Shown here piece after piece: positions 1,849 to 38,071 of a DNA stretch of 44,394 nt. The DNA is from Candidatus Bathyarchaeum sp. (GTDB taxonomy: Archaea; Thermoproteota; Bathyarchaeia; Bathyarchaeales; Bathyarchaeaceae). A program made the translations under genes and the position numbers. Where the stretch lies: NCBI GenBank assembly GCA_020344315.1, contig CP070820.1, positions 173,605 to 217,998 on the forward strand, in the 5' to 3' direction. The notes under the pieces are model-generated. The model saw only the letters and a list, made by a program, of their open reading frames with translations. It ran no database searches and was not told where the DNA came from. The stretch's first letter is position 1. Each line of letters starts with the position of its first letter.

Positions 1849-3360
1849 TTATCCTTGATAAGGCGCTCGTTCCGTAGTCGTGACATCAACTGATGCGGTT
1901 ACACCAGATCTCCAGAGGGTCAAAGTTATAGATTGACCGGGCGACACTTCTCCTTCCATGTATGCAACCATCTCTTCTCTAGTGAAAGTAGGATGGCCAT
2001 CGATAGCCAGTATAATATCCATGGCTGTTAAACCTGAAGGCCCGCTTACAGCCGGATTTAATCCAGCATCATCCGCTGGAGAGCTTGGAACAACCTCAGT
2101 AATTAGAAGCCCTGTCTGGTAAGGATCAACATTCAGAATATTCATTGAACTTATAACTTCTGAACTTAGTGCTACGATGCTAACACCCACAAACGGATGT
2201 TTATACTCCCCTTCCGTGATAAGAGAAGGAACCACCCGATTAATGATGTTACCTGGAACTGCAAAGCTGAAACCTACGTCGGTAGCCGCATTTGTTATCC
2301 CAACTACATCTCCAGAAAGATCCAATAACGGTCCTCCTGAACTACCGGGGGCAACTGTTAAGTCAAGTTGTAATACAGGTGTGATTATGGGTTCAAGATC
2401 GAGGAGCTTGTTAAGCTGACTTATGTAGCCTGATGAAAGGCTTTCTGTAAGCCCAAGAGGGTTACCTATGGCTACTACCTGCTGTCCAATGAAATATTGG
2501 TCACTAAAATTCAATGGATTAACCCCGGATGGGACTGTAGGTACTGTTAGCACAGCAATGTCAGAGTAAGCATCGGAAGCTATCACGGTTGCTTGTGTCC
2601 TAGTTCTGTCAAAGAACTCGATTTCAATATCCGTTTCATCTTCAACCACATGGTAGTTGGTGGCTATCGTGGTTGAATTATTGAAGAAAAATCCTGAACC
2701 TTGTCCCACAGGGGTCCTGATTACCACAACGGACTTGTATGTAGCCGCGTAGACTTCAGCCGGTGTCAGGTTAAGCAGTTGGTCAACAATTCCTTCTAGG
2801 TCCGAAAGGTTTGAAATAAGCCCCTCAAGGGTTGCAACAGTGGTTCCGAGCTCAGCTAGTTCTGTAGAGGTGCTCTGATTTAGGGCGTTCATTTGATTGG
2901 TTAGATTTGATAGGCTTGATTTGGTTTCCTCGATGCTTGTTGTTGTTTCGTCTAGGGTGTTTTGTAAATCACTAAGCTGTCCTTCTTGGATACTGAGCTG
3001 TTCTTCCTGTGCACTAAGTTGTTTTAGAGCGCTTTGTAGTTCATCGAGCTGTCCCAGAGCATTTTGTAGCTCGTTAAGCTGTTCTTCCTGGGCATCAAGT
3101 CGTCCTTCTTGGATACTAAGCTGTTCCAGAGTGCTTTGTAGTTCACTAAGCTGTTCTAGAGCATTTTGTAGTTCGCTGAGCTGTTCTTCGTGGGTACTAA
3201 GTTGCTGCAGAGCATTTTGTAGCTCATTAAGTCGTTCTTCTTGAACATTAAGTTGCTCTTGAATACGAATGCTGTCAAGTATCAAATAGAAGCTAAAAGC
3301 CGAGAAGACAATAGCGACAACGGCTATGATGGCTACTATCTTTAAGGTCCTGCTAGACAT
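1849..3360 (-). CDS. Membrane-anchored HtrA/DegP-like serine protease with long coiled coil
   Basis: Numbering is from the ATG at 3360, chosen over one 21 bases upstream because GGTGG lies just before it. Residues about 6-29 form a signal anchor. Residues about 33-173 are a Q/E/L-rich coiled coil built from near repeats such as QLSELQNALEQLS. A trypsin-like domain follows, with the full triad: His237 in TNYHVV, Asp267 in SDIAVL and Ser341 in APGSSGG. A C-terminal PDZ domain starts near HPFVGVSIV and includes GLLITEVVPSSPADDAGL. The family degrades misfolded envelope proteins. The topology suggests an extracytoplasmic protease held away from the membrane by a helical stalk. The stalk is much longer than in bacterial DegP/DegS; the repeats probably expand and contract. 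Confidence 0.9.
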   Translation of the reverse strand: MSSRTLKIVAIIAVVAIVFSAFSFYLILDSIRIQEQLNVQEERLNELQNALQQLSTHEEQLSELQNALEQLSELQSTLEQLSIQEGRLDAQEEQLNELQNALGQLDELQSALKQLSAQEEQLSIQEGQLSDLQNTLDETTTSIEETKSSLSNLTNQMNALNQSTSTELAELGTTVATLEGLISNLSDLEGIVDQLLNLTPAEVYAATYKSVVVIRTPVGQGSGFFFNNSTTIATNYHVVEDETDIEIEFFDRTRTQATVIASDAYSDIAVLTVPTVPSGVNPLNFSDQYFIGQQVVAIGNPLGLTESLSSGYISQLNKLLDLEPIITPVLQLDLTVAPGSSGGPLLDLSGDVVGITNAATDVGFSFAVPGNIINRVVPSLITEGEYKHPFVGVSIVALSSEVISSMNILNVDPYQTGLLITEVVPSSPADDAGLNPAVSGPSGLTAMDIILAIDGHPTFTREEMVAYMEGEVSPGQSITLTLWRSGVTASVDVTTTERAPYQG

Positions 3361-3531
3361 ATGTCCACCAAAATCATCCATGGGCTTTAAGAGTTTTGGA
3401 TTAGAACTCCAAATGCGCTTGGAACTTCAAAAGAGATGCAAAAACATATAGCAGATTTATAATCCAACCTTCCTTATTCAGACTCGCAGAATAATATGGC
3501 ACTTCTCCACCTTATATTTGAGCCTTAACTT

Positions 3532-35880: not shown

Positions 35881-36028
35881 CGTCCCATGCAGCCTTTCTT
35901 CTCGGTTTGAAGTAAAGAATGGAGAAGCAAACTGAGTAGGCGCGCACATTTCGATTTAGCGTAAAAGATGTTTAAATGTTGCTGGTATAAAATTCAATTT
36001 CTGCAAAAAATAAGTAATGGTTCTGGAT

Positions 36029-36096
36029 GCGCAGAAGTGGATGGAGGTAACCTAAGTCTCCTTTTAATCGAAGCACGCAAGAAATCCACTTAGCGC
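36029..36096. ncRNA. Candidate structured RNA (stem-closed 68-base element)
   Basis: GCGC-AG-AAGTGGA (36029-36041) pairs with TCCACTT-A-GCGC (36085-36096): 11 base pairs with a small internal loop. Inside, GGAG (36043-36046) and CTCC (36058-36061) can form a second stem. It lies in the 270-base gap between two converging genes. It does not match a tRNA. The sequence around it shows no gene. Confidence 0.35.
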
Positions 36097-36153
36097 CTGG
36101 AACAAGAGGGAGTATGACTCGAAGAGTTGTACGAAATGAAGTTCATAGTTTGG

Positions 36154-36408
36154 TTATCTGCTTTGGTCCACGCGCAGGACATTTCCCTTTTCGTCGATCA
36201 CGAGTTCCACCCAAGCTCCCTCGTATCTTGCATCGTCCACGAATCTTGCGACCCAAGCTTTCTTCAATTCGACCTTACCGGCTTTTCCGCGGTTTTCTAT
36301 GAGTTTTACGTATTTTTGTCCAAGGGATCGCAGATACGCCCTTTCTGAGACCTTAACGAATTCTTTCACCTTTTCTTCAGCTATTTTTCTGATCTCTTCT
36401 TCACGCAC
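36154..36408 (-). CDS. Small PepSY-like protein, protease operon gene 3
   Basis: The GTG at 36408 overlaps the stop of the preceding gene (GTGCGTGA); a GTG at 36420 is the alternative. The 84-residue protein is a charged helix (EEEIRKIAEEKVKEFVKVSE) followed by beta strands ending in AWVELVIDEKGNVLRVDQSR. That strand-turn-strand ending resembles PepSY/propeptide domains (xxVEVxVDxxGxVxxVD). No signal peptide is present. It is the third gene of the caspase-like protease operon. It may act as a companion or inhibitor of the protease, which is inference. Confidence 0.6.
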   Translation of the reverse strand: MREEEIRKIAEEKVKEFVKVSERAYLRSLGQKYVKLIENRGKAGKVELKKAWVARFVDDARYEGAWVELVIDEKGNVLRVDQSR

Positions 36409-36892
36409 TCTTGACCACACTCCAGTTCTTAGTTGTTGAGATAACAGCTTTTGTTTCAGGATTTATCTTCACCACTATAAAGTCTCCCTCCACAGGAATA
36501 CCTCCTACAACATGCTTCCATCTTACGAAGAACGTCAAACCGACCGCACCCCTGTCTATTAACTCCACGGATTCAAATACCGCATCCTCTGGAACTTCCA
36601 ATTCAGACTTTGCTATTTCTATGGCTTCCTCTTCCGTAAGCTTAACGACTTTGGAACCGATCGTTCTACCTGGATATCGCCACCCTACGGTCTCCCCGGT
36701 TTCCTCGTCGATCCTAGCAACTATAGACTGTTCCGCCGCTCTCACTTCTACTTCAGAAATTTTTCTCAGAAGGCCCGGAGACCATCTACTTGTCTTTTCT
36801 CCAATTTCAGGAGCTATTCTTTTTCCTCTTAGCCTCAGTTTCTTTGTTGCTAATTTCTTGACCTTCTCTTCAATCTTCTTTTCCTGACTCAC
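36401..36892 (-). CDS. PepSY/propeptide-like protein, protease operon gene 2
   Basis: The GTG at 36892 is chosen because GAGGTGA lies 5 bases upstream; a GTG at 36901 is the alternative. The 163-residue protein has a lysine-rich N-terminal helix. A first beta-rich unit follows (EQSIVARIDEETGETVGWRY), then helix TEEEAIEIAKSELEVP and strands ending VVGGIPVEGDFIVVKINPET-KAVIST. The G-I-P-V-E-G-D block followed by a strand with a turn and NW is the signature of PepSY/YcdB-type and M4-peptidase propeptide domains, which inhibit or chaperone proteases. Unusually, there is no signal peptide. It lies directly after the caspase-like gene, with no gap to speak of. Confidence 0.7.
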   Translation of the reverse strand: MSQEKKIEEKVKKLATKKLRLRGKRIAPEIGEKTSRWSPGLLRKISEVEVRAAEQSIVARIDEETGETVGWRYPGRTIGSKVVKLTEEEAIEIAKSELEVPEDAVFESVELIDRGAVGLTFFVRWKHVVGGIPVEGDFIVVKINPETKAVISTTKNWSVVKSA

Positions 36893-36902
36893 AGACTTCA
36901 CC

Positions 36903-37541
36903 TCACTCCCATAATATCCAGCAGCTCATGGCTGGATAACTGTCGTCTGCCTCATCCAATGCTGTTCTCAAATTCTTTCCCTCAACGAGCCACTTTTGGT
37001 AGACCAAATCGTCGAAGTACTTGGCACCCCAGTCAGGTATTGTCTGGGTGAATCCCACATAGTTTTTCGTGCCTTTAGCTCTAAAGGCATTTGCCATAGT
37101 ATCGTTCTTTCCTCCCAAACATACTCCTGCATAAAGCAGCAATCCCGGAGCTGAACTCGAGGATGTTACGTCACTAGGATAAACATTTCCGTCATCGAAG
37201 CAGAAATAAACTTTGCCACCGCCAAAGCCTCCGTGTCCTGCCAAGTGCACGATATTCTTATTCAAGTTGGTCAAGAAGTCAGTCTTGGTTGCAGGATGCC
37301 TAATCATAGTAACGGAGTGCCCTTCAGACTCTAAAATGTTCTTGATCTGCTCCCCCTCGTCGTATGCGCCAGGGAGATGACCATTCCCTGATGTGTGCGG
37401 ATCTGCGCAGACAAAGTCGTTCTTGAATGTCGGTACTAACTGTGCTATCAACTTCTTCAAAAGCTTCAGAATAAAATCTAGGATACCTCTCATTTCTTCA
37501 ATATCCCTAGTCAATCTCTCTAATCTTTCTTCTCTTGACAT
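36903..37541 (-). CDS. Caspase/CHAT-like cysteine protease (clan CD)
   Basis: The 212-residue protein has an N-terminal coiled coil (about 1-35), then a fold with a His/Cys dyad. NIVHLAGHGGFGG carries His103 and LLLYAGVCLGGKND carries Cys141, each at the end of a hydrophobic strand as in caspases, gingipains and CHAT proteases. After the dyad, GTKNYVGFTQTIPDWGAKYFDD matches the CHAT-type segment that follows the nucleophile (V-x-G-x-T/x-x-x-x-D). There is no signal peptide or membrane segment, so it acts in the cytoplasm. It is the first gene of a three-gene operon whose other members look like PepSY/propeptide domains. Substrate and trigger are unknown; regulated proteolysis or a defence/cell-death role is plausible. 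Confidence 0.8.
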   Translation of the reverse strand: MSREERLERLTRDIEEMRGILDFILKLLKKLIAQLVPTFKNDFVCADPHTSGNGHLPGAYDEGEQIKNILESEGHSVTMIRHPATKTDFLTNLNKNIVHLAGHGGFGGGKVYFCFDDGNVYPSDVTSSSSAPGLLLYAGVCLGGKNDTMANAFRAKGTKNYVGFTQTIPDWGAKYFDDLVYQKWLVEGKNLRTALDEADDSYPAMSCWILWE

Positions 37542-37572
37542 TTTAACTCTGAGTAAAACTTTATAATTAATT

Positions 37573-37582
37573 GCTTTATAAA
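37573..37582 (-). promoter_or_regulatory. TATA box of the caspase-like operon
   Basis: TTTATAAAGC on the minus strand lies about 36 bases before the ATG at 37541, so transcription should start about 10 bases upstream of the ATG. The region is strongly AT-rich on both sides. No palindromic operator is evident. Confidence 0.5.
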
Positions 37583-38071
37583 ATTTATGATTTGATTATT
37601 GATTATATGGAGAGTTCTATAATCCAGTTTTAGAACTAAATGAAACGAACGAAAAATATTGCATACCCCGAGCTATTCAGGACATTTTAATTTTTGATGT
37701 GAATGTGAATAGGTAAACTTTGGAAAACTACTGTGGGATGACATCAATACTCACTTATCAAGAAGAGGCAACAAGCTATCTAATAATTACTATACCCAAT
37801 GAGAATCCTACTTCAGGGCACATCATTGTTTCTTTAACTTTTATGTGAAGACACATACATTGGTGTAATTCGTTTTTCGGATACAGTATGATTACCTCCT
37901 TTAACACTGGTTTTCCAAGTTTCATTAATGAAGTATGATTGCCAAACGGAGCAATCGACAGCAATGGTATGTTGTTTCCAGACGTAGCGCGGGCATCGAC
38001 GTTGTCATTCTCTCTGCACTTTGTGAGGCAGGAGGCACAGGACACCAATCAGGCAGATTTTAGCTTTCTTT
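37583..38071. other. Mostly non-coding gap with one doubtful ORF
   Basis: The gap between the caspase-like operon and galT holds only one doubtful minus-strand ORF (37776-38048). That frame encodes 90 residues from a TTG with no ribosome binding site, has several cysteines near its start (SCASCLTKC) and later PLLSIAPFGNHTS, and shows no clear family. I would not call it a gene without homologues. The rest is AT-rich with no repeats. Confidence 0.35.

Follow-up and report, generated by a model that had tools for sequence, protein, structure and literature searches.

A compact archaeal operon encodes a predicted cytoplasmic cysteine protease of the CHAT family (gene 1), a free-standing protein that is PepSY-like by profile comparison (gene 2) and a small third protein (gene 3), and the simplest reading of its genomic setting is that this lineage acquired it horizontally. 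Most likely, gene 2 binds the gene 1 CHAT protease and holds it inactive, an interpretation to which we assign a probability of about 0.45. It builds on the family assignments of genes 1 and 2, on the layout of the operon and on the recurrence of a protease/PepSY gene pair in a second genome of the phylum. The operon lies in a window of 44,394 nucleotides, i.e. the whole stretch of DNA that was analysed, and the host genome (G000) is archaeal and consists of a single contig of 1.56 Mb.

Organisation of the operon

The ORF listing of the region 36154-37541 gives the order protease, PepSY-like protein and small protein on the minus strand (Table 1). The junction of genes 1 and 2 reads GGGAGTGAGGTG, gene 1 ending in GGGAGTGA one base ahead of the GTG of gene 2, and genes 2 and 3 share an 8-nt overlap, GTGCGTGA, in which the end of gene 2 overlaps a GTG start of gene 3. 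Both downstream genes have alternative starts, a second GTG at 36892 that would shorten gene 2 to 163 aa and an internal GTG at 36408 that would shorten gene 3 to 84 aa. The abutting and overlapping arrangement of the trio suggests translational coupling. Upstream of gene 1 there are two A+T-rich TATA-like elements, TTATAAAG and TTTTATAAAG, which may constitute an archaeal promoter.

Table 1. Positions in the window of the trio, its candidate promoter elements and the insert that carries it
Feature	Position	Strand	Remark
Gene 1 (P1), CHAT/caspase-type cysteine protease (predicted)	36903..37541	-	212 aa
Gene 2 (P2), tandem PepSY-like protein	36401..36901	-	166 aa from first GTG
Gene 3 (P3), small helical and beta protein	36154..36420	-	88 aa from first GTG
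Two A+T-rich TATA-like elements (candidate promoter)	37559..37584	-	about 19-42 nt before the gene 1 ATG
Trio-bearing insert	35881..38071	.	2,191 bp (about 2.2 kb); from synteny with G045 and G049

The codon-usage scores of genes 1, 2 and 3 are 0.20, 0.28 and 0.41 bits/codon, with 18 host genes ranging from 0.09 to 0.32 bits/codon as reference. The antisense ORF scores 0.01 bits/codon, and neither it nor the flanking ORFs resemble host genes in codon usage. As the codon usage of the trio is host-like and that of the antisense and flanking ORFs is not, we take all three genes to be real, and the three tightly packed genes of an earlier, sequence-only reading stand as overlapping or abutting minus-strand ORFs. 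That reading had also noted that the two small proteins lack signal peptides, and by hydropathy none of the three products has one (maxima of the 19-residue means 1.28, 1.15 and 0.41 for genes 1, 2 and 3). The products of genes 1 and 2 are thus predicted to be cytoplasmic.

Elsewhere in the window, at 1849-3381, lies a gene for a trypsin-like protease (HtrA/DegP-type by sequence reading), the N-terminus of which is a long coiled coil with repeated EEQLxELQNALxQL units.

Gene 1 as a CHAT-type protease

The sole Pfam match of gene 1 is CHAT (PF12770; E=7e-8, 32.7 bits vs. a cut-off of 24, residues 37-199), and this family model assigns gene 1 to the CHAT-type cysteine proteases, i.e. it is a predicted peptidase. 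A putative catalytic dyad, His103 in HLAGHGGF and Cys141 in LLLYAGVCLGG, lies within the CHAT match in the expected order, and its motifs are, as judged from the residues, those of caspase-type enzymes. The previous proposal of a caspase-type cysteine protease with a His/Cys dyad in GHGG and AGVCLGG is thus supported in both respects, the family match being above the cut-off and enclosing both motifs.

The single-sequence AlphaFold model of gene 1 is of low confidence (pLDDT 48), and it contains a predicted N-terminal helix at about residues 3-38, with pLDDT values of 81-93 across residues 1-30. Searching with this low-confidence model, Foldseek returns weak matches only, MALT1 being the best and the metacaspase Yca1 and caspase-11 being among the others, none of them with E<1e-3. 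Across the 257 genomes of the class, no homologue of gene 1 is found at E<1e-4 beyond its own genome. Likewise, no close relatives emerge from tblastn against plasmids and phages or from scanning viral and genome collections for patterns, be it with gene 1 alone or with the alignment of the pair described below, and NCBIfam gives no informative match to gene 1 or gene 2.

Gene 2 as a tandem PepSY-like protein, and gene 3

The Pfam matches of gene 2 are all below threshold, i.e. PepSY (PF03413) with 15.4 bits vs. a cut-off of 24, FTP with 16.2 vs. 21 and DUF4901 with 20.9 vs. 27, and no other protein of the host genome matches PepSY better. Profile comparison is clearer: gene 2 scores 31.3 when compared with aligned archaeal PepSY domains, where 20 shuffled sequences reach at most 15.4, and 40.2 when compared with a tandem PepSY protein from another genome of the phylum, G437, where the shuffled maximum is 17.0. 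The two proteins are 35% identical over residues 62-151, which comprise the end of the first unit and most of the second. By these comparisons, which lie well above the shuffles, gene 2 is a free-standing PepSY-like protein. Its single-sequence AlphaFold model is of low confidence (pLDDT 58) and shows two helix-plus-four-strand units, and the top Foldseek match of this model is a lipoprotein of C. difficile (4exr; E=3e-3), with a low TM-score of 0.31.

Gene 3 differs from gene 2 in this respect. Pfam yields nothing for it up to E=10, its score against the PepSY profile (13.2) is within the shuffled range (maximum 13.3), and only its C-terminal VIDEKGNVLRVD resembles the strand that closes a PepSY unit. 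Thus, of the two PepSY-like proteins originally suggested, gene 2 is retained and a second one is not supported, and the search for PepSY/FTP relationships that had been proposed separates the two proteins in the same way. A match of gene 3 to RNase P component 4 in NCBIfam (E=0.0016 over the helices, far below the cut-off) was set aside, as RNP4 is already encoded elsewhere in the genome, at 507979, and a whole-genome search with the RNP4 model misses gene 3.

Searches of the kind run with gene 1, covering plasmids, phages, and viral and genome collections, found no close relatives of gene 2 or of gene 3. A second, partial homologue of gene 2 is cut at the start of a contig in G215 (L007 1-6326, G215:C7). 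The same locus also encodes a papain-like protease of family C70 (E=3e-16) and, further along, possibly a tail-like protein; it is possibly a contractile-injection-type locus.

Recurrence of the gene pair

When gene 2 alone was used to query 398 genomes of the phylum, two matches were obtained outside its own genome, one in G437 (E=1.7e-3) and one in G431. We judge the latter (L009) to be spurious, the ORFs at this position reading to us as unrelated FKBP-like and Pelota-like proteins. The match in G437, a distant archaeon, is a tandem PepSY protein of 314 aa, which exceeds the Pfam PepSY cut-off (E=3e-9) and the gene for which lies, after a gap of 15 bp, directly behind that of a caspase/C25-like protease of 246 aa. 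This protease has weak matches to C25 (E=2e-4) and CHAT (E=1e-3) and carries the motifs HIASHGGF and ASACYSG. The order, protease followed by PepSY, is common to G437 and the window, with a spacing near zero in both.

The two pairs differ in their predicted localisation. In G437 the protease has a signal-like N-terminus and the PepSY protein an N-terminal hydrophobic segment for export or anchoring, features that neither protein of the window possesses, so that in each organism the pair shares one compartment. Recurrence of the pair together with its confinement to one compartment favours a partnership in trans. Moreover, the G437 genome (1.7 Mb) contains a single caspase-like match, which makes chance adjacency unlikely, at roughly 0.1-0.5% by our own estimate. 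Between the two pairs, the proteases are related at the superfamily level only (profile score 34.9, shuffled maximum 16.9), and each is as close to archaeal CHAT-like proteins that have no PepSY gene beside them as it is to the other. The G437 pair is sporadic, occurring in one of the 147 genomes of its order, and searches of the kind described above found no close relatives of its proteins. Clear cases of a caspase-like protease gene paired with a PepSY gene thus number two.

Caspase/CHAT-like proteases as such are more widespread, with matches of the A3 profile in 65 of the 398 phylum genomes. Mostly they have an N-terminal membrane anchor and, outside the window and G437, no PepSY neighbour. 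At the loci L019-L047 these proteases share the motif series VDQL...RVHS...MGC...AFxxKGA, and by our reading several of them are neighboured by Lrp-like regulators and by large surface-type proteins rich in repeats.

Insertion site and distribution

The trio occurs in one of the 257 genomes of its class and is absent from the other 256, and conservation of the trio in related genomes is not supported. It sits in an insert that is flanked by convergent galT-like and wHTH-like genes. In sister genomes the site is empty, the galT-like and wHTH-like ORFs being 13 bp apart in G045, the neighbour genes of which are 80-91% identical to those of the window, and 4 bp apart in G049. The simplest reading is that this lineage acquired the trio horizontally. 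In a further genome (G048:C10, L097 562-1741) nucleotidyltransferase-like and membrane-protein genes replace the trio beside the galT-like gene, which may mark this position as a hot spot for insertions. The insert has neither repeats at its ends nor a tRNA. An intergenic repeat of 137 bp is located at 35942-36079 of the window and recurs (78%) at G000:C1:1119026-1119162; it has no Rfam match and folds no better than shuffled sequences.

A patchy distribution and horizontal transfer are features of the trio, but they are not specific to toxin-antitoxin or defence systems. Neither the PADLOC defence families nor PHROGs match any of the three genes, and the toxin-antitoxin or cell-death role put forward before, with activation of the protease by breakdown of its partner, is not directly supported. 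In a wider generalisation, PepSY-like proteins would be dedicated trans inhibitors of caspase-type (CHAT/C25-like) cysteine proteases within archaeal cells, the two together being a mobile and switchable module for self-digestion or defence, of which there is an exported form as well; we regard this as rather doubtful.

Proposed mechanism and alternatives

That the protease of gene 1 is regulated in trans by the PepSY protein of gene 2 is plausible. In the mechanism we propose, gene 1 would be a cytoplasmic cysteine protease with the caspase fold of the CHAT family, and gene 2 would bind it in trans and keep it inactive, much as PepSY propeptides act in cis and YpeB may act on SleB in trans. 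The protease would then be set free by a signal that takes gene 2 away or dislodges it, and gene 3 may be a co-translated accessory. Points against this mechanism are the small number of paired cases, the sub-threshold Pfam score of gene 2, the distance between the two proteases, the many archaeal caspase-like genes that lack a PepSY neighbour, the low confidence of the models, the absence of PADLOC matches and the otherwise extracytoplasmic description of PepSY domains.

Three other explanations have to be weighed against inhibition by gene 2. First, gene 2, and perhaps gene 3, might be a substrate or sensor that is cut by the activated CHAT enzyme. CHAT proteases with co-encoded substrates do exist, as in the type III-E Craspase (PMC10028731, PMC9729208), and the predicted N-terminal helix of gene 1 might serve as an arm for regulation or oligomerisation, but it is for regulating proteases, and not as their substrates, that PepSY domains are best known (PMC2954215, PMC13393411). 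In addition, reading the ORFs of the window we recognised no CRISPR or signalling genes, and we consider a substrate role unlikely.

Second, gene 2 might be a folding helper or stabilising subunit, i.e. a propeptide-like chaperone acting in trans, with any inhibition being incidental. Propeptides frequently serve as intramolecular chaperones, and in both known cases the two proteins share operon and compartment, just as such a role would have it. Furthermore, YpeB has been proposed to stabilise SleB (PMC6660665). The CHAT domain of gene 1 is small and single, which speaks against this explanation, and we judge it to be improbable to a similar extent.

Finally, a coincidence, in which CHAT and PepSY-like genes with no connection became neighbours in two lineages, would accord with there being two cases only, with proteases that are not mutual closest relatives, and with the restriction of the trio to one genome of its class, but it is quite improbable given that the search that retrieved G437 was unbiased, gene 2 being its query, that the chance of such adjacency is so low, and that gene order, spacing and matched localisation agree between the pairs. 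Inhibition of the gene 1 protease by gene 2 remains our preferred interpretation.

Comparison with known systems

A text search of the literature found no pairing of PepSY with CHAT, PepSY and caspase-like proteins co-occurring in unrelated work only. The TPR-CHAT protein Csx29 of Craspase, the substrate of which is Csx30, which Craspase cleaves, shares with gene 1 the CHAT domain, the caspase-type His/Cys dyad and the lack of a signal peptide. Gene 1, however, has only 212 aa, its chain includes neither TPR nor any other partner domain, its partner is PepSY-like, and no CRISPR gene is recognised nearby. The membrane-anchored archaeal CHAT-like proteases have a catalytic domain related to the caspase-like domain of gene 1, but differ from it in their anchor, in an RxHS-type motif that replaces GHGG at the His and in the missing PepSY neighbour.

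PepSY/BLIP-like domains have been proposed to inhibit either the protein of which they are part or a separate one, and are otherwise described as extracytoplasmic (PMC2954215). The propeptides of the M4/M36 metalloproteases resemble the trio in that a PepSY/FTP or PepSY-like domain is associated with a peptidase, but they act in cis on an exported metallopeptidase, whereas gene 2 would act in trans on a clan CD cysteine peptidase that is not exported; with separate genes, no signal peptide and a CHAT enzyme, the trio is distinct from an exported PepSY-propeptide metalloprotease. Closer in arrangement are YpeB and SleB, where PepSY domains reside on a separate protein and YpeB may keep SleB inactive until YpeB is proteolysed (PMC13393411). 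These two are, however, proteins of the spore envelope and SleB is a cell-wall hydrolase, whereas the products of genes 1 and 2 are predicted to be cytoplasmic and the enzyme to be a caspase-type protease.

PepSY has mostly been described as an extracytoplasmic regulator of metalloproteases and cell-wall hydrolases. If a caspase-type protease and a tandem PepSY protein form a recurring archaeal gene pair, clan CD cysteine proteases would come under the control of PepSY as well, and this control would reach into the cytoplasm. Archaeal double-PepSY proteins with unidentified protease targets have been described in the DPANN cluster cls.004634 (PMC6393860). No protease partner is named for this cluster, whereas gene 2, which is likened to it by description, directly adjoins a gene for a caspase-like protease, and the pair thus offers a candidate type of partner for such proteins.
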